Source: Bacteroidia bacterium (lineage in GTDB: Bacteria > Bacteroidota > Bacteroidia > B-17B0 > Aurantibacillaceae). Taken from it: 64,000 nucleotides of DNA. The stretch covers positions 1-64,000 of the forward strand of contig JADLER010000095.1 of assembly GCA_020846025.1 (NCBI GenBank). Direction: 5' to 3'. Below the pieces are notes generated by a model that worked only from the letters and a program-made list of their open reading frames with translations, was not told the DNA's origin and ran no database searches. Shown piece by piece: positions 33,221-41,011 of this stretch (position 1 is the first letter of the stretch; every line of letters begins with the position of its first letter). The translations under genes and the position numbers were made by a program.

Positions 33221-33273
33221 AGAATATCCTCACGCACAAGATTTTTTGTTTTTATTGCCGCAGCATTGCAAAT

Positions 33274-34537
33274 CATTAGTGTTCGGAACATGTTTAATCA
33301 TCAATAATATGAACAATTTTATTAGGGTCCCCGCCAGATAAGATGACGATTTCTTTTAATAGACTTTTTTGCAGTTCATTGCTGATTTTCATTTTTACAA
33401 TTTTGTAGCCAGATAAATTGTTCTTCTTTTTGTACACGATGATAAGCATTGCCAGTATTAAAGTCATATATACCATTACTTTGATTCCATTTAAGTTCCT
33501 ATTAAGTAAATGGCTAAAGTTTAATTCCTGTTTTATGAATTTAAAAAACACTTCAATTTCCCATCTTTTTCTATATAAATCAGCAATTTCATAAGCATCC
33601 AGATCAAAATTATTTGTAACAAAACAAATTTCTTCATTTGAACTTTTAACATAACCTCTTATAAATCTAAATGGTACCAATATTGGTTTTTTGGTGCTAT
33701 GTTCAATAAAATTAACTTCAAGATCTTCTGTCAGCAAAACACTGGGCGTGTTTTTTACAGACACTATTCTATTACTTTTTAATATTTTATAAGTAGCACT
33801 TGTTTTAATTCGGGTAACAAACAAAATATTTTCCTTATTAAGCGTTGCAAAGGTATTTCTACTTTGTACTCCACGATCGAATGTCACTATACTGGACTTA
33901 TTGTATCTGTAATTATATATAACTTCAGGAATGGTCAAATCTTCGCATAAGTATTTTTGGCCAGTATAAATTTTAAAGTCACATGGTAAGGAACCATGCA
34001 GCCTCATTGTAAACTTAACTTGTTTCTTGTCCGTTTTACTTCCTATTTTCATTCCCCATTGAACAAGCTTAGAGGAAACAGCCACCATGGTAGTATCATA
34101 TTTTTGAATAGCATTTTGCTCCTTCAATTCTGCATTGAATTTATCAAACAGTAATTCAAATATTTTTTCAAAATAATCCACATTAATACTACTAATTCGA
34201 TCACTTAGTGAATTGTATTTGGCTTTAATCTTGCTTTGATTTGCAAGAAGAATAAATTCTGCGGAATTGAAGCATTCTTCTAAAACTCGTAAAGACGGCT
34301 TCCCATATTCAAGCATTGAATAAAGAATTAACTTAAAAACAATTGAACCATTAAGTTTTTTTACTTGATGATTCACTTTCGTTTGAGTCGATAGCGCAGA
34401 AAGTTCATCATCTGAAATATAATTGAGTATTGCTTCAAACTTCATCTTTCAAAGATCAAATCAATCTGAAAATGAATTCTTTAGCTTGTAAATAATTTAT
34501 TAAAAAGCTTTTGTTAAGGTTCCGAACACTAATGATA
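33274..34537. mobile_element. IS4-type insertion sequence
   Basis: About 1.26 kb. Left end CATTAGTGTTCGGAAC; the right end reads GTTCCGAACACTAATG before ATA, a perfect 16-bp terminal inverted repeat (18 bp if the adjoining AT is counted). The direct repeat GCAAAT flanks it (33268-33273 and 34538-34543) and is the likely target duplication. Joining the flanks restores a palindrome whose outer arms are CCGC and GCGG (33258-33261 and 34547-34550), so the insertion site was itself a small palindromic repeat. One intact transposase gene on the minus strand. Confidence 0.85.
33294..34445 (-). CDS. IS4-family transposase (DDE)
   Basis: 383 aa, intact. N-terminal DUF4372-like region (KLNGSIVFKLILYSMLEYGKPSLRVLEE), first catalytic Asp in QKYDTTMVAVSSKL, second in IVTFDRGVQSR, and the IS4 Y-R-E-K signature YRKRWEIEVFFKFIKQEL carrying the catalytic Glu. 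Complete frame and intact ends suggest a recently active copy. It separates the hflX unit from the response-regulator locus. Confidence 0.93.
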   Translation of the reverse strand: MKFEAILNYISDDELSALSTQTKVNHQVKKLNGSIVFKLILYSMLEYGKPSLRVLEECFNSAEFILLANQSKIKAKYNSLSDRISSINVDYFEKIFELLFDKFNAELKEQNAIQKYDTTMVAVSSKLVQWGMKIGSKTDKKQVKFTMRLHGSLPCDFKIYTGQKYLCEDLTIPEVIYNYRYNKSSIVTFDRGVQSRNTFATLNKENILFVTRIKTSATYKILKSNRIVSVKNTPSVLLTEDLEVNFIEHSTKKPILVPFRFIRGYVKSSNEEICFVTNNFDLDAYEIADLYRKRWEIEVFFKFIKQELNFSHLLNRNLNGIKVMVYMTLILAMLIIVYKKKNNLSGYKIVKMKISNELQKSLLKEIVILSGGDPNKIVHIIDD

Positions 34538-34643
34538 GCAAATGCAGCGGAGCGGGCGTATTATTCGCTAAATCTTACAATTTAAAGTCAATAAATCTTC
34601 GTGAAAAATTAAACTCTCAATTCTCTGCTACAACGCAAGAAAA

Positions 34644-35333
34644 TTAAAACTCAAATTTATATCCTATTCCTTTGATGGTTTTAATATAGTCTTCGCCCAG
34701 TTTTTCTCGAAGTTTTCTAATATGTACGTCTATGGTTCTATCTCCTACCACTACTTCATCTCCCCATACTTGTTCTAAAATAAACTCACGAGTAAATACT
34801 TTTCCAGGTTTACTAGAAAGTAACAACAATAACTTAAACTCCTTCTTAGGAAAATTTATTTCTATCCCATCTTTATATACTGAATGTCTTTCTCTGTCTA
34901 TCTTAATGTTCCCCAAATCAATCTCAGAAGTTGGTTTTGGTGATGTTGTATTTCTTCTTAAAAGTGCCTTTATTCTACTTACAAAAACTCTTGGTTTAAT
35001 TGGCTTTGTAATATAATCATCGGCGCCTACTTCAAAGCCAGCTATTTGGGAATAATCTTCATTTCTAGCACTTAAAAATGCAATAACGCATTGTTGTAAG
35101 TTCTCGTGCTCTCTAATCTCCCTGCAAGTTTCAATGCCATCTTTCTCCGGCATCATCACATCTAGCACTATTAAATTCGGTATTTGTTTCTTAGCTATCT
35201 TAAGCGCATCATTTCCATTAGTTGCTGTAAATACTTGAAAGCCTTCTTTAGTTAAATTATAACTTAAAAAATCTAAGATGTCTTGTTCATCATCTACAAG
35301 TAAAATTTTATATAGATTATTCTCAATATTCAT
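34644..35333 (-). CDS. OmpR/PhoB-family response regulator
   Basis: 229 aa from the ATG at 35333 (a TTG 6 nt upstream is in frame). Receiver domain complete: acidic pair Asp14-Asp15 in LLVDDEQD, phospho-acceptor Asp58 in LIVLDVMMPEKDG, Ser88 in AFLSAR, Lys110 in DDYITKPIKPR. C-terminal winged helix (IDLGNIKIDRERHSVY, GDRTIDVHIRKLREKLGEDY, TIKGIGYKFEF). No histidine kinase gene is adjacent, which is unusual for this family. It is divergent from the TonB-receptor gene with a shared 165-nt intergenic region. Confidence 0.94.
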   Translation of the reverse strand: MNIENNLYKILLVDDEQDILDFLSYNLTKEGFQVFTATNGNDALKIAKKQIPNLIVLDVMMPEKDGIETCREIREHENLQQCVIAFLSARNEDYSQIAGFEVGADDYITKPIKPRVFVSRIKALLRRNTTSPKPTSEIDLGNIKIDRERHSVYKDGIEINFPKKEFKLLLLLSSKPGKVFTREFILEQVWGDEVVVGDRTIDVHIRKLREKLGEDYIKTIKGIGYKFEF

Positions 35334-35412
35334 ATTCAATAAATCAATGCAACAAAGTTACTTGATAGTAGATACACTCATGTTAAGTAAATATTAAATT
35401 ATACGATAAATA

Positions 35413-35439
35413 GTGAATCAAAATTAATATTTAATTAAT
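35413..35439. promoter_or_regulatory. Putative response-regulator operator, copy 1
   Basis: GTGAATCAAAATTA followed by ATATTTAATTAAT, with TTAAT at 35424 and 35435, 11 bp apart. Nearly the same block occurs upstream of the secreted-protein gene at 38427-38456. An 11-bp direct-repeat period is the usual geometry for OmpR/PhoB-type dimers. It lies between the divergent regulator and TonB-receptor genes. Confidence 0.5.
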
Positions 35440-35498
35440 TATTAGATGATTTTAAAGTGAGATTATGGTTGTTGTTTTGTGGAAAAACTAATCAAGTT

Positions 35499-38399
35499 AT
35501 GAACATAAAATTAATTATCATATCGCTACTTACTTTTTCAAATTTAATTATAGCACAAAACGGTAGTATCACCGGAAAAGTAATTGATTCTAAAACAGGT
35601 GAAGTATTACCAGGAGCCACAATATTAATTGAGGGAACAACAAAAGGAGTGTTGAGTGATTTTGAAGGAATCTACGCTATAAAGAGTTTGTTACCAGGAA
35701 AATATACCCTTATTTCTAGCTTTATTACTTACGATAATAAGAAGAACATTGATGTTATTGTTAAAGCAAACGAAGTAACAGAATTTAATATTGGCTTAGA
35801 CCCATCAAGTTCTCAACAATTAACAGAGGTTGTTGTTCAAGCAGAAATGAATAAAGAAAATACAAATGCCATTTTATTTATGCAAAAAAATAATGCAAGT
35901 GTAAGTGATGGTATTTCATCAGAAAGTATCAAAAAAACACCCGATAGAACAACAAGTGATGTTATAAAAAGAATCAGTGGTGCTACAATACAAGACAATA
36001 AATTCGCCATCATCAGAGGAATGAGTGATAGATATAACATCGCTTTTATAAATGGTGCTCCTTTACCTAGTTCAGAAAGTGATAAGAAAGCTTTTTCTTT
36101 TGATATTTTTCCAGCTAATCTATTAGATAATATTATGATTATTAAAACAGCCACCCCTGATTTACCTGGCGATTTTTCTGGTGGTGTTATTCAAATTAAT
36201 ACGAAAGGTATTCCTGAAAAAAACATGCAAAGTATCTCAATTGGGGCTGGTTATAATACACAAACAACATTTAAAGAAATTAAAACCTATAAAGGAGGAA
36301 AAACTGATTGGCTTGGCATTGATGATGGAACAAGAGCGTTACCGAGTTCTCTTCCAACAACGAAAGATTTTTCAAAAGATAAACTAGAGCAGATTAATTA
36401 TGCTAAAATGTTAAATTATGATTGGAGTTTACAAACTCAAAAAGCAATTCCTAACTTAAACCTACAATACTCATTAGCAAATGTAGGTAAGGTATTTAAA
36501 AGGAAAGCAGGGAGTATATTAGCAATCAACTATAACAATAACACAAATACAACATTTACAACTAGAAGAGATTTTTCGGAACAGGGCGAAAATTATGAAA
36601 TTATCAAGAATAGTGATTATCAAGACACCACATATACTAATACTATTTTAGCAAGTGCACTTTGGAATTTAGCTTACAAATTAAATGACAATAATCAGAT
36701 TAGTTTAAAAAATCTATATAGCATAAATTCAGAAGATAAAGTAATAACCCGAAAGGGAGCATTAGATATAGGTAATAATAAATGGGAAAAGTCAAGTGCA
36801 AGATGGTTTACTCAAAATAAAATTTATTCGGGTCAATTAAATGGAGAACATAATATTGAAATTGCAAAAATCAAATTAAACTGGGTGGCAGGATATAGCC
36901 ATATAAAAAGAGAGATGCCTAACTTAAGAGTAATGCGTTATACAAAAAGTTCAATCGAACAAAATGTAGAGGCTGATTCAACGCCTTACACAGCAAACAT
37001 TTTTACTAGTAACTCAACTTCAACTAGTAATGGTGGAACTATGTTATTTACAAAAACAGATGAGAGTATAAAAAGTATAAAATATGACTTATCAAAAAAC
37101 ATTAAAATTAGTAAAACACAACATGAGTTAAAGCTAGGAGGAAATCATATTTACAGAGACAGAGCATTTACTGCAAGACTATTAGGTTATGGAATGTACA
37201 GAAAAAATTCATCATTAACCCCTAATACCAATTTACTATTGTTAGATGAATCAGAAATTTTTTCTCAATCGAACATGGGAATTATTGACGGACCAGGTGT
37301 AAAAGACGGCGGTTTTTTATTAGTAGAAGCCACAACACCTAAAGATAGCTACCAAGCATCTTCGTTATTAAACGCAGGCTATTTATCAATTGACTCAAAA
37401 TTCTTTGACCGTTTAAGATTTATATATGGCGCAAGAATTGAATCTTATAATCAAAAAATTACCTACTTTTTAAAACCTGATGAAGCAACTACAAATGACA
37501 CCACTGTAATAGACATCTTACCCTCAATTAATGCAGTATATAGCCTAACAGAAAAAACAAATCTTAGATTATCCTATTACAGAACAGTATCTAGACCAGA
37601 GTTTAGGGAATTAGTACCATTTACATTTGTAGATTTTTCTAATGGATTTAGTATTGATGGGAATCCAACATTAATAAGAGGAAAGGTAGATAACTACGAT
37701 ATAAGAGGTGAATGGTTTCCAGGCGTTGGGCAATTGGTTTCAATATCTGGATTCTACAAACGAATTACTAATGCAACAGAAATGGCTGTGAATGCAGCTT
37801 CACAAATTAAGAGTTTAACTTATGTAAACGTTCCATTAGTAGAAAACATAGGACTTGAATTAGAATATCGCATTAAATTAAGTAGTCTCTTTAAAAATGA
37901 TTCATTAAACATCATTAAAAACACCTCATTCTTCTCAAATTTTGCCTATATACAATCTAAAGTAGATGTAAGTAAAATAAACGGTGCAGGAATGTCAACT
38001 CGTCCGCTTCAAGGGCAATCTCCTTTTATTATAAATGCAGGTGTACAATATTTAGATACTGAAAAAGGCTGGGGAGTTAGCTTATCCTATAATGTAATTG
38101 GAAGAAGAATAGTAATTGTTGGCTCTATTGCAGAGCCTGACTTTTATGAAGCTCCAAGACATGTATTAGACTTACAATTATCTAAAACTATCAAACAGAA
38201 ATTTGAAATAAAACTAAACCTACGAGATATCTTAGCACAAAGACAAATTTGGTATCAAGACATTAATAAAAATGGAAAGCTTGATAAAAATGCTGAAAAA
38301 GAAAATCAAAACCTCACACATTCAAGCAATATAGACAATGTAATGTTTAATACAAAACTAGCACCAACTATATCTTTATCGTTATCCTACAAATTTTAG
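35499..38399 (+). CDS. TonB-dependent outer-membrane receptor with CarboxypepD_reg domain
   Basis: 966 aa from the ATG at 35499, which gives the signal peptide NIKLIIISLLTFSNLIIAQ; the frame opens at a GTG 42 nt upstream that would spoil it. An N-terminal carboxypeptidase-regulatory-like domain (GSITGKVIDSKTGEVLPGAT) is followed by the plug (SDVIKRISGATIQDNKFAIIRG, TATPDLPGDFSGGVIQI) and a 22-strand-type barrel (NLRLSYYRTVSRPEFREL), ending SLSLSYKF. Imports an unknown ligand using TonB energy. No SusD gene follows; instead a secreted T9SS protein and a response regulator are next. Confidence 0.93.
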   Translation: MNIKLIIISLLTFSNLIIAQNGSITGKVIDSKTGEVLPGATILIEGTTKGVLSDFEGIYAIKSLLPGKYTLISSFITYDNKKNIDVIVKANEVTEFNIGLDPSSSQQLTEVVVQAEMNKENTNAILFMQKNNASVSDGISSESIKKTPDRTTSDVIKRISGATIQDNKFAIIRGMSDRYNIAFINGAPLPSSESDKKAFSFDIFPANLLDNIMIIKTATPDLPGDFSGGVIQINTKGIPEKNMQSISIGAGYNTQTTFKEIKTYKGGKTDWLGIDDGTRALPSSLPTTKDFSKDKLEQINYAKMLNYDWSLQTQKAIPNLNLQYSLANVGKVFKRKAGSILAINYNNNTNTTFTTRRDFSEQGENYEIIKNSDYQDTTYTNTILASALWNLAYKLNDNNQISLKNLYSINSEDKVITRKGALDIGNNKWEKSSARWFTQNKIYSGQLNGEHNIEIAKIKLNWVAGYSHIKREMPNLRVMRYTKSSIEQNVEADSTPYTANIFTSNSTSTSNGGTMLFTKTDESIKSIKYDLSKNIKISKTQHELKLGGNHIYRDRAFTARLLGYGMYRKNSSLTPNTNLLLLDESEIFSQSNMGIIDGPGVKDGGFLLVEATTPKDSYQASSLLNAGYLSIDSKFFDRLRFIYGARIESYNQKITYFLKPDEATTNDTTVIDILPSINAVYSLTEKTNLRLSYYRTVSRPEFRELVPFTFVDFSNGFSIDGNPTLIRGKVDNYDIRGEWFPGVGQLVSISGFYKRITNATEMAVNAASQIKSLTYVNVPLVENIGLELEYRIKLSSLFKNDSLNIIKNTSFFSNFAYIQSKVDVSKINGAGMSTRPLQGQSPFIINAGVQYLDTEKGWGVSLSYNVIGRRIVIVGSIAEPDFYEAPRHVLDLQLSKTIKQKFEIKLNLRDILAQRQIWYQDINKNGKLDKNAEKENQNLTHSSNIDNVMFNTKLAPTISLSLSYKF

Positions 38400-38426
38400 C
38401 AAATCACAACATCATTAAATTTTAAA

Positions 38427-38456
38427 GCGAATCGAAATTATTAATATTCAATTAAT
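38427..38456. promoter_or_regulatory. Putative response-regulator operator, copy 2
   Basis: GCGAATCGAAATTATTA followed by ATATTCAATTAAT: same word as 35413-35439 with a 3-nt insertion. TTAAT at 38441 and 38452 keeps the 11-bp spacing. It sits about 90 nt upstream of the secreted-protein start, with a TAATTTTG box downstream at 38511-38518. Confidence 0.5.
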
Positions 38457-38510
38457 ATAATTATAAATTTTACATAAGATTCGTTTAATGTTCAAGAAAG
38501 ATTGCTGAAA

Positions 38511-38518
38511 TAATTTTG
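38511..38518 (+). promoter_or_regulatory. Candidate -7 promoter box
   Basis: TAATTTTG fits the Bacteroidota TAnnTTTG element, 25 nt before the ATG of the secreted-protein gene and 55 nt after the TTAAT repeats. No clear -33 TTG, as expected for an activator-dependent promoter. Confidence 0.45.
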
Positions 38519-38542
38519 TAGCAATAAAAAACAAAAAATATC

Positions 38543-40270
38543 ATGAAAAAAACTTATTTATCTGCGGCTTTACTTGCCAGCTCATTTTTAACCGCACAGT
38601 CGCCATTTACATGGGATGTTACAACATACAAAGGCGCATTTCCAGTAACCGACAATACACCAGCAACAGATTGGACTTTTGGTTGGGCAAATTGGGATCC
38701 CGAAAACACCGTTTATGCTGTTCCTACATCAACCATTACTGGAGATATTTCAACTAATACTTCGATAAGTGGTGTTGTGTATCTAGACGGTATTGTGCAT
38801 GTTAAGAACAATGCCATACTTACCATTGCGCCAGGCACAATTATTAGATGTAAAGCAAATGATGTAAGCTTAAATCCTGGAACGCTCGTAATCACAAAAG
38901 GCTCTAAAATTAATGCACAAGGCACAGCATCACAACCCATCGTTTTTACATCAAACAATTCAGTTAATGATGGTCGTAATCCTGGCGATTGGGGAGGGAT
39001 TATCTTATTAGGAGATGCTGTAATAAATACAGGAGGCGTTTCTACTAATCCAAATGTAAGCAGAGTTGAAGGTTTTGCAACAAATGACCCATTAAGATAT
39101 TATGGAGGTGCAAATGACGCTGATAATTCAGGAATTTTATCTTATGTTAGAATTGAATTTGCAGGAGTTGCATTAGACCCATTACAATCAAACTCAGAAA
39201 TTAATGGTTTAACACTAGGAGGAGTTGGTTCTGGTACACAAATTGATCATGTGCAAGTTTCATTTTGTGGTGATGATGCTTTTGAATGGTTTGGTGGAAC
39301 CGTTGACGCAAAATATTTAATTGCATACAGAACAATTGATGATGATTTTGATACTGATTATGGATATAGAGGTCGTGTACAATTTGGTTTAGGTATTAAA
39401 GATCCAAATCTGTGGGATGCCATTTCAGGTGGCGCAAGTAATGGGATTGAATCTGATAACAACGGTACCTCGCCCTATTTAGCACATCCTTTAACAAGAC
39501 CTGTATTCTCAAACTTCACATTTATTGGAGCAAAAGGAGATGGTACGGTATATGGTTCAGGAACTTTACCCGTTGGTGAAGCACACGAAGCAGCGGCGCA
39601 CATACGTCGTAACTCTTCACATTCAATATTTAATTCACTTATTTTAGGTTACGAAAAAGGATTACGTTTACAAAATGCTGTAACGCAAGATAATTTTAAT
39701 GCTCCATCAAACGCTGACTCGGTTGCTGTAATTGCAAATGTTAACATTACATCTGAAATCCCTTCTACTTATATAACCGAATCGGCTACTGTTTTTAATC
39801 AAGGTTGGTATCATAGCTATTCCGTTTCAAATAACATTGATACAGTTACTACAATTGCTCAGATTAATTTTGTAAATGCTTTTGTTTCTCTAGGGTCAAC
39901 GCCAGATTATCGTCTTGCTTCCAATTCATCTGCCTCAACTGGCGCAACTTTTACTCACCCAGCATTTGTTGGAGGTTTCACAGGTATCGAAGATAACATT
40001 CATCTAATTAAAGATTCCTTTATAGTGTTCCCTAATCCAACCTCAGAAAGTACTACTCTGTCATTCGATACTAAAGAAGAAGGCAATGTTACAATTACAC
40101 TATATGATATTCTTGGCAATCTAGTTAATCAAATTTCAGACAACAATTCATTTGAAAAAGGACATCATTCTATAGTAGTTAGTACTTCTCATTTATTAAG
40201 TGGGGTGTACTTTTTTTCAATTGAATTAAATAACGTAAAAGAAACTAAGAAAATAATTATTAATCATTAA
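38543..40270 (+). CDS. Secreted T9SS protein with predicted beta-helix
   Basis: 575 aa. Signal peptide (KKTYLSAALLASSFLTAQ), a central region with strand-rich repeats typical of right-handed parallel beta-helices (VVYLDGIVHVKNNAILTIA, LVITKGSKINAQGTASQPIVF, NPGDWGGIILLG, GILSYVRIEFAG), Asp-rich loops (YRTIDDDFDTDYGYRG), and a type A T9SS sorting domain (FIVFPNPTSESTTLSF ... GVYFFSIEL). Homologues next to a TonB receptor of this type are, from memory, recurrent in Bacteroidota, but the ligand or substrate is unknown to me. Followed by a hairpin and the second regulator. Confidence 0.88.
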   Translation: MKKTYLSAALLASSFLTAQSPFTWDVTTYKGAFPVTDNTPATDWTFGWANWDPENTVYAVPTSTITGDISTNTSISGVVYLDGIVHVKNNAILTIAPGTIIRCKANDVSLNPGTLVITKGSKINAQGTASQPIVFTSNNSVNDGRNPGDWGGIILLGDAVINTGGVSTNPNVSRVEGFATNDPLRYYGGANDADNSGILSYVRIEFAGVALDPLQSNSEINGLTLGGVGSGTQIDHVQVSFCGDDAFEWFGGTVDAKYLIAYRTIDDDFDTDYGYRGRVQFGLGIKDPNLWDAISGGASNGIESDNNGTSPYLAHPLTRPVFSNFTFIGAKGDGTVYGSGTLPVGEAHEAAAHIRRNSSHSIFNSLILGYEKGLRLQNAVTQDNFNAPSNADSVAVIANVNITSEIPSTYITESATVFNQGWYHSYSVSNNIDTVTTIAQINFVNAFVSLGSTPDYRLASNSSASTGATFTHPAFVGGFTGIEDNIHLIKDSFIVFPNPTSESTTLSFDTKEEGNVTITLYDILGNLVNQISDNNSFEKGHHSIVVSTSHLLSGVYFFSIELNNVKETKKIIINH

Positions 40271-40282
40271 TACAATTTTAGT

Positions 40283-40313
40283 TAAAGGTGCAAACATTGT
40301 GTTTGCACCTTTA
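40283..40313. terminator. Strong hairpin between secreted-protein gene and second regulator
   Basis: TAAAGGTGCAAAC (40283-40295) and GTTTGCACCTTTA (40301-40313) form a perfect 13-bp stem with loop ATTGT. It ends 5 nt before the ATG at 40319, so on a read-through transcript it would mask the translation start of the next gene. It looks like a terminator for the secreted-protein gene, possibly with attenuator behaviour. Confidence 0.7.
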
Positions 40314-40318
40314 TATTT

Positions 40319-41011
40319 ATGGTGAATATATTCCACATAGTTCTAATTTCAAATCAAAAAACATTTGCTAATGAGGTAGTTCCAATCATAGAAGAAGACA
40401 ACAACAAAATTTCCATTATAAGTTCAGAAAAGGTACTTTACAACCTACTAGACAAGGAAAAGGTTGATTTGATATTGATGGAACTTGATTTCAAACCAAA
40501 AGACGGGATTACACTAACTGGTGAGATAAAAAATAATAAAAAAATTAAATCACCACACATTATGTTATATTCTAATAAACTTGATGATTATATTCAAATT
40601 ATTGCATATAATTCAGGAGTTGATGATTATATTTCATCAAATATAAATCCAAAATTATTAAGAGCCCGTATCTCATCCATTAAAAAAAGATTAACTGACA
40701 GATATTCAAGTACGGACCTCATACCTAGAGAATCAAATTTCTATGTTGATAAAGAACAATATGTAATTCATACTTCAAAAGGAAAAATAAGTTTACCGAA
40801 AAAAGAATTTGAATTATTAAATTTAATGTATAAAAACAACAAAAAAGTATTTACACGAAAAGAAATTACAATGCTTATTTGGAACCTAAATGAACCTACT
40901 AAAAGCAGAAGGATTGACACTCATATTAGGAACATTCGTAAAATTCTTGGTAAAGATGTTATAAAAACTGTAAAAGGGAAAGGCTATAGCATTAATAATG
41001 AAATACTTTAA
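40319..41011 (+). CDS. OmpR-type regulator with degenerate receiver domain
   Basis: 230 aa, same architecture as 34644-35333. The receiver fold is kept, but the chemistry is lost: the acidic pair is Ser11-Asn12 (LISNQK), the phospho-acceptor position is Glu55 (LILMELDFKPKDG), and the conserved Lys is Ser107 (DDYISSNINPK); Ser85 remains. The winged helix is intact (ISLPKKEFELLNLMYKNN, SRRIDTHIRNIRKILGKD, TVKGKGYSI). It should act without phosphorylation, Glu possibly mimicking the active state, as known for atypical regulators such as HP1043 or ChxR. It lies downstream of the TonB-receptor and secreted-protein genes behind a strong hairpin, convergent with the YitT-type gene. Confidence 0.9.
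   Translation: MVNIFHIVLISNQKTFANEVVPIIEEDNNKISIISSEKVLYNLLDKEKVDLILMELDFKPKDGITLTGEIKNNKKIKSPHIMLYSNKLDDYIQIIAYNSGVDDYISSNINPKLLRARISSIKKRLTDRYSSTDLIPRESNFYVDKEQYVIHTSKGKISLPKKEFELLNLMYKNNKKVFTRKEITMLIWNLNEPTKSRRIDTHIRNIRKILGKDVIKTVKGKGYSINNEIL

Follow-up and report, generated by a model that had tools for sequence, protein, structure and literature searches.

A PhoB-like locus with a degenerate PhoB twin, probably a phosphate-starvation locus, conserved in a family of uncultured Bacteroidota

The locus described here occupies positions 34644-41011 of a 64-kb window, the whole stretch of DNA analysed (64,000 nucleotides), from a Bacteroidia bacterium whose genome we call G000. It holds four genes, and the open-reading-frame list and Pfam domain searches placed all of them where an earlier reading of the letters alone (the sequence-only reading) had put them. 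RR1 (34644..35333, minus strand) encodes a canonical, PhoB-like response regulator of the OmpR/PhoB type (Response_reg and Trans_reg_C). Divergent from it, on the plus strand, lie a gene for a TonB-dependent receptor (35499..38399; TonB_dep_Rec_b-barrel, CarbopepD_reg_2 and Plug), for which the ATG at 35499 is the better choice of start and whose product has a CarbopepD_reg domain at its N-terminus; a gene for a T9SS-secreted, FII/ElpS-like surface protein (38543..40270; Por_Secre_tail); and RR2 (40319..41011; Response_reg and Trans_reg_C), encoding a PhoB paralogue with a degenerate phosphorylation site. The surface gene and RR2 are separated by a terminator- or attenuator-like hairpin (40283..40313, plus strand; -18.8 kcal/mol); five bases separate its end from the start codon of RR2, and most orthologous loci have a comparable hairpin between the same two genes. 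There is no kinase ORF in the 30-46 kb interval, in line with the earlier claim for 33-45 kb, and neither the ORF list nor Pfam revealed a SusD-like gene in or beside the locus. The sequence-only reading had missed one neighbour, an IS4-family insertion sequence (33258..34550, minus strand; NCBIfam transpos_IS4_1, above cut-off) that lies just 3' of RR1 and outside the module.

This gene order is kept across the family. A receptor ortholog (E <= 1e-60) was present in 71 of the 87 family genomes sampled. When the longest receptor of each genome was taken, a divergent response regulator was found within 4 kb upstream in 55 of the 71 and a co-directional one within 6 kb downstream in 52; regulators stood on both sides in 46, several of the failures being contig ends. 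Of 20 loci inspected in full, 19 had RR1 divergent from receptor, surface protein and RR2, some of them with additional genes, namely for a SpoIIE-type phosphatase, a 134-residue protein that matches no Pfam family, a PstS-like protein and small proteins; in the twentieth, from G079, RR2 was kept and the receptor was not found. The sequence-only reading had made the association of the four genes depend on conserved order in related genomes. That order is conserved, and so the association was not refuted.

Three PhoB-type boxes lie in the intergenic regions. A motif found by EM on 172 upstream regions has the form TTAACATTN3TTAAC with a further TTAA 11 bp on, that is, tandem TTAACA at 11 bp, a layout expected for regulators of the OmpR/PhoB type. 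The motif was refitted without the window genome and its 97% relative, and scored on both strands of the 64 kb. Box 1 (TTAATATTTACTTAACATGAGTGT; 35374..35397, minus strand) faces RR1 and, at 19.5 bits, is the best site of the window; box 2 (TTAATATTTAATTAATTATTAGAT; 35424..35447, plus strand), upstream of the receptor, is weak, with 9.6 bits, and ranks sixth; box 3 (TTAATATTCAATTAATATAATTAT; 38441..38464, plus strand), upstream of the surface-protein gene, scores 12.8 bits and ranks second. The direct repeat previously noticed before these last two genes is thus real, both copies being PhoB-type boxes, and box 1 adds a third, stronger site. A generic repeat finder did not return the shared repeat among its top families; it was the motif model that detected it. 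The same model found no box upstream of RR2. Box 1 is predicted to be an RR1 autoregulation site, and is possibly shared with the receptor.

Of the regions upstream of the receptor, 96% scored at least 10 bits, and of those upstream of the surface gene 87% did, compared with 4% of 326 control upstream regions and 1-2% of shuffles; the high rate is partly by construction, since these families also supplied the training regions and the loci are related. From the start of box 3 to a Bacteroidota -7 promoter element (TAATTTTG; 38511..38518, plus strand) the distance is 70 bp; this is the commonest spacing in orthologous loci (13 of 21 occurrences), and 17 of the 21 share the same 11-bp phase. The core of the box also fits published data from Riemerella anatipestifer: in the motif that DAP-seq gave for its phosphate-responsive regulator PhoP, the letters conserved best are TTTAACA (PMC9603813). 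A strict form of the pattern matched five sites in G000, against two for a control pattern. Two of the five are in this locus and the remaining three are without phosphate genes, so that no wider Pho regulon was found in this genome by the strict pattern.

RR1 combines receiver and winged-helix domains with a full set of phosphorylation residues in the alignment (D, D, D, S, Y, K), predicted 11-bp tandem sites upstream and, in some relatives, a linked PhoR-type kinase. Its best NCBIfam models are those for PhoB, yet it falls below their cut-offs (224.8 of 296.2 bits and 213.2 of 270 bits), and the kinase likewise scores below the PhoR cut-off; for this reason we write PhoB-like and PhoR-like. 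In G000 the PhoR-like kinase gene is single copy and located elsewhere (G000:C116:3134-4171), and each of the 62 good family genomes also has one such gene. The kinase gene directly follows RR1 in G050, G001 and several outgroups, and stands beside RR1 in loci L089, L119, L141, L147, L155, L168, L200, L171 and L180. The C116 kinase is 66% identical to the RR1-adjacent kinase of G050, and no OmpR-type regulator was found beside it. Because the kinase adjoins RR1 in relatives and is unlinked in G000, RR1 and the C116 kinase constitute a separated pair, between which phosphotransfer is predicted; the earlier suggestion that a distant kinase serves RR1 is supported to this extent.

Neither PhoU nor PstS was detected in G000 (assembly 92% complete), which carries two PitA-type carriers. 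Given the absence of PhoU and PstS, sensing of the signal must differ from the E. coli model, and Pst/PhoU probably has no part in how the PhoR-like kinase perceives phosphate. Directly 5' of the kinase gene (G000:C116:724-3137, L117) are genes for a TPR protein with HisKA_3 and HATPase domains and for a small membrane-like protein, the latter overlapped by the start of the kinase gene.

The arrangement of receptor, surface protein and PhoB is already known from Flavobacterium. The PhoBR operon PUSIV of F. johnsoniae (Fjoh_0541-0549) encodes PhoR (Fjoh_0543), PhoB (Fjoh_0544), a TonB receptor (Fjoh_0545) and the beta-helix-type protein FII (Fjoh_0546), and Pi depletion induces the last two with log2FC of 8.0 and 9.9, respectively (Lidbury et al. 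2020, PMC8115612). Compared by description, PUSIV and the window locus share a PhoB beside a CarbopepD_reg TonB receptor and a beta-helix-type surface protein, with no SusD among the listed genes. They differ in that (i) PhoR adjoins PhoB in PUSIV but is unlinked in G000, (ii) FII is described as a lipoprotein, whereas the window surface protein has a T9SS tail, and (iii) the window locus has the degenerate RR2 following the surface gene. In two Flavobacteriia loci (L171 and L180), homologs of the window genes occur in this same order, with kinase and RR1 homolog on one side and receptor and surface protein on the other.

FII is related to ElpS of Caulobacter crescentus (CC0170), which is secreted under phosphate starvation and encoded beside the TonB receptor CC0171 (PMC2996285). 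Sphingomonas, Pseudoalteromonas and Parabacteroides likewise have a homolog of the window surface-protein gene paired with one for a TonB receptor, in Sphingomonas together with T2SS genes. The window protein matches the ElpS-like gene of Sphingomonas at 39% identity (E 3e-28), and its place in the ElpS/FII group is through comparison with such ElpS-like genes paired with TonB receptors. While ElpS is a T2SS-dependent lipoprotein in Caulobacter, the window protein is a T9SS substrate. Of the earlier description of this protein as a T9SS-exported beta-helix, the first part was confirmed by the Por_Secre_tail domain. As for the second, AlphaFold gave a confident model rich in strands (pLDDT 84, pTM 0.83), and Foldseek yielded no convincing global match, with weak tailspike and pectate-lyase hits in addition to the sorting domain; these hint at a beta-helix fold.

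The lack of a neighbouring kinase and of SusD had been taken to indicate an unusual system. This was not borne out, since PUSIV and ElpS/CC0171 are known systems that also lack SusD. The locus resembles SusCD loci in combining TonB-linked uptake with a surface partner, but it has neither SusD nor CAZymes, and the receptor scores far under the cut-off of the SusC model (25.9 of 368 bits); a SusCD/PUL assignment was ruled out by the missing SusD and this score.

The second regulator is a receiver fold without phosphotransfer residues, i.e., a pseudo-receiver, as the sequence-only reading had recognized. At the positions where RR1 is intact, RR2 reads S, N, E, S, Y, S in the alignment: the acidic pair DD is changed to SN, the phospho-Asp to Glu and the Lys to Ser, and the Ser is kept. 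Its structural model comprises receiver and winged-helix folds (pLDDT 85), with a pTM of 0.55 because the arrangement of the two domains is uncertain, and the Foldseek matches to this model include the atypical regulators RitR, CosR and HP1043. These proteins and ChxR (reviewed in PMC12632262) resemble RR2 in having OmpR/PhoB architecture and no working phosphorylation site; RR2 differs from them in its position within a Pho locus beside the canonical, PhoB-like RR1, and in that the substitution varies between genera. Two regulators per system, one or both with a pseudo-receiver, are also found in CmrRST of Clostridioides difficile and BldM/WhiI of Streptomyces, for which heterodimer or co-regulator models have been proposed; these belong to other phyla and serve other functions, and BldM/WhiI are of another regulator family.

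In phylogenetic analysis RR2 formed its own clade (support 100/100), placed in a wider group with three outgroup proteins (L143, L147 and L151; 100/99), although long branches make the details of this tree uncertain. The outgroup proteins retain the Asp, Thr, Tyr and Lys and have partly lost the acidic pair; the L147 gene adjoins a gene for a SpoIIE-type phosphatase. We consider the best reading, still a tentative one, to be that RR2 co-regulates the same promoters without needing phosphorylation. The sequence-only reading had proposed an independent co-regulator; that proposal is plausible, and RR2 is retained downstream of the receptor in 52 genomes.

The strongest competing explanation holds that RR2 is an activator in which Glu acts as a permanent phosphate mimic, making it a constitutively active copy of PhoB that provides positive feed-forward. 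Glu does occupy the phosphorylation site in genus g1 and in G050, and RR2 of g1 retains the recognition-helix arginines common to RR1 and RR2. ChxR, of the OmpR/PhoB type, sets a precedent in that it dimerises, binds DNA and activates, all without phosphorylation (PMC3960148). Syntenic RR2 proteins, however, carry the non-mimic Asn in most of g3, where the Lys is replaced by Phe, and an unaltered Asp in g8, where the pocket is lost and the Lys is replaced by Leu. These orthologs rule out Glu as a universal phosphate mimic, so such mimicry cannot be the common mechanism of RR2, and we regard a constitutive activator as unlikely.

The proposal of a specialised acquisition module had left the nutrient unspecified. 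The match to PUSIV supports such a module and points to phosphorus, and we consider the assignment of the locus to phosphate starvation (Pho) well supported. A quite improbable alternative is that RR1 is a PhoB-like regulator with some other input, and that the substrate is, for example, a siderophore or glycan. It is consistent with the scores of RR1 and the kinase under the curated PhoB and PhoR cut-offs, with the lack of PstS and PhoU in G000, and with the control of many non-phosphate genes by PhoP in R. anatipestifer. Against it, gene set and order match the Pi-induced F. johnsoniae locus, and in Caulobacter starvation for phosphate induces proteins of the ElpS type. Further, a PstS-like gene separates RR1 from the receptor gene in two genomes of the same genus; it has the Pfam domain PBP_like_2 and reaches 199.8 bits with TIGR02136, slightly short of the 206.6 cut-off. 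The absence of PstS is also not peculiar to G000, pstS being often missing in Flavobacterium too (present in 26 of 102), and the PitA-type carriers are present in G000.

That RR2 is a functionless, decaying duplicate of phoB is very improbable. Its phosphorylation residues are gone and it diverges fast, with 32-53% identity between most genomes compared with 70-82% for RR1. Nevertheless, the reading frame is intact in every aligned ortholog, the position is fixed across genera, and residues of the receiver loop and the DNA-binding helix are invariant. Between the window and its nearest relative (L077), dN/dS was 0.15 for RR2 and 0.04 for RR1; within the genus, mean identity was 79% for the RR2 DNA-binding domain and 67% for the receiver. 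That RR2 persists in G079, a genome in which no receptor was detected, also speaks against decay. RR2 is on these grounds an intact PhoB paralogue under purifying selection and fixed in position, as judged from sequence comparison, and the dN/dS and conservation rule out a pseudogene. Least probable by far is the suggestion that the IS4 element (transposase at 33294-34445; ends with 32-nt inverted repeats, 84% complementary) removed the kinase from beside RR1: it does occupy the position that the kinase has in G050, but L077 lacks the element, having unrelated DNA in its place, no same-genus genome examined has a kinase beside RR1, and in G086 and G078 the kinase is at its own site, likewise orphan, which rules out the insertion as the cause as far as sampled.

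Taken as a whole, the best explanation, and a likely one, is a Pho locus under RR1 in which receptor and surface protein scavenge phosphorus and RR2 is a modulator. At low phosphate, the C116 PhoR-like kinase would phosphorylate RR1. RR1 would then bind TTAAYA repeats, arranged in tandem every 11 bp, ahead of three genes (its own, that of the receptor and that of the surface protein) and induce these. The receptor and the T9SS-exported ElpS/FII-like protein would form an outer-membrane unit capturing phosphorus, probably organic. Since RR2 has no PhoB box and starts right after the hairpin, we infer that it is most likely expressed weakly, from transcription of the induced surface gene that continues through the hairpin, and is probably Pho-induced. 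As its receiver would not normally be phosphorylatable, its activity would track its amount rather than that of the kinase, and it may bind the same type of box as a homodimer, or as a heterodimer with RR1, and so modulate the Pho response with a delay. More speculatively, and at somewhat less than an even chance, RR2 may represent a lineage-specific layer of Pho control, in which phosphorylation was lost by different routes in each genus and the gene was kept behind an attenuator, its dose reporting past Pho induction and tuning PhoB via shared boxes or heterodimers.

We found no description of a conserved degenerate PhoB twin at the RR2 position in the literature searched. Through the analysis, a locus carried by the majority of genomes in this family of uncultured Bacteroidota is assigned a function, phosphorus scavenging, and a testable PhoB box with a fixed spacing to the -7 element becomes available for these bacteria. 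The analysis also reveals PhoB twins that form a natural series, all at one syntenic position, in which different substitutions removed the phosphorylation site. As the working of pseudo-receivers was described as a mystery in a 2025 review (PMC12632262), this series should be a good system in which to ask how they function.

Some further features of related loci were noted. The SpoIIE-type phosphatase and the 134-residue protein, which has no Pfam or NCBIfam match, recur inside the locus in relatives (L081:6722-9036, with equivalents in L078-L088, L094 and L096) at two different positions, and perhaps work together with RR2 there. G000 contains no close copy of either (best SpoIIE match 37%), while its 3.2-Mb genome holds 38 matches to the SpoIIE-type phosphatase, a striking expansion. 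In sister lineages (L143, L144, L145, L147, L155, L168 and L200), stand-alone receiver-domain proteins of 124-141 aa are encoded at the RR2 position, directly after the surface gene, with phosphorylation sites that are intact in some and degenerate in others. Finally, one locus (L160:12475-16017) has surface-protein genes in tandem, the second of which is preceded by TTAA-type repeats of its own.
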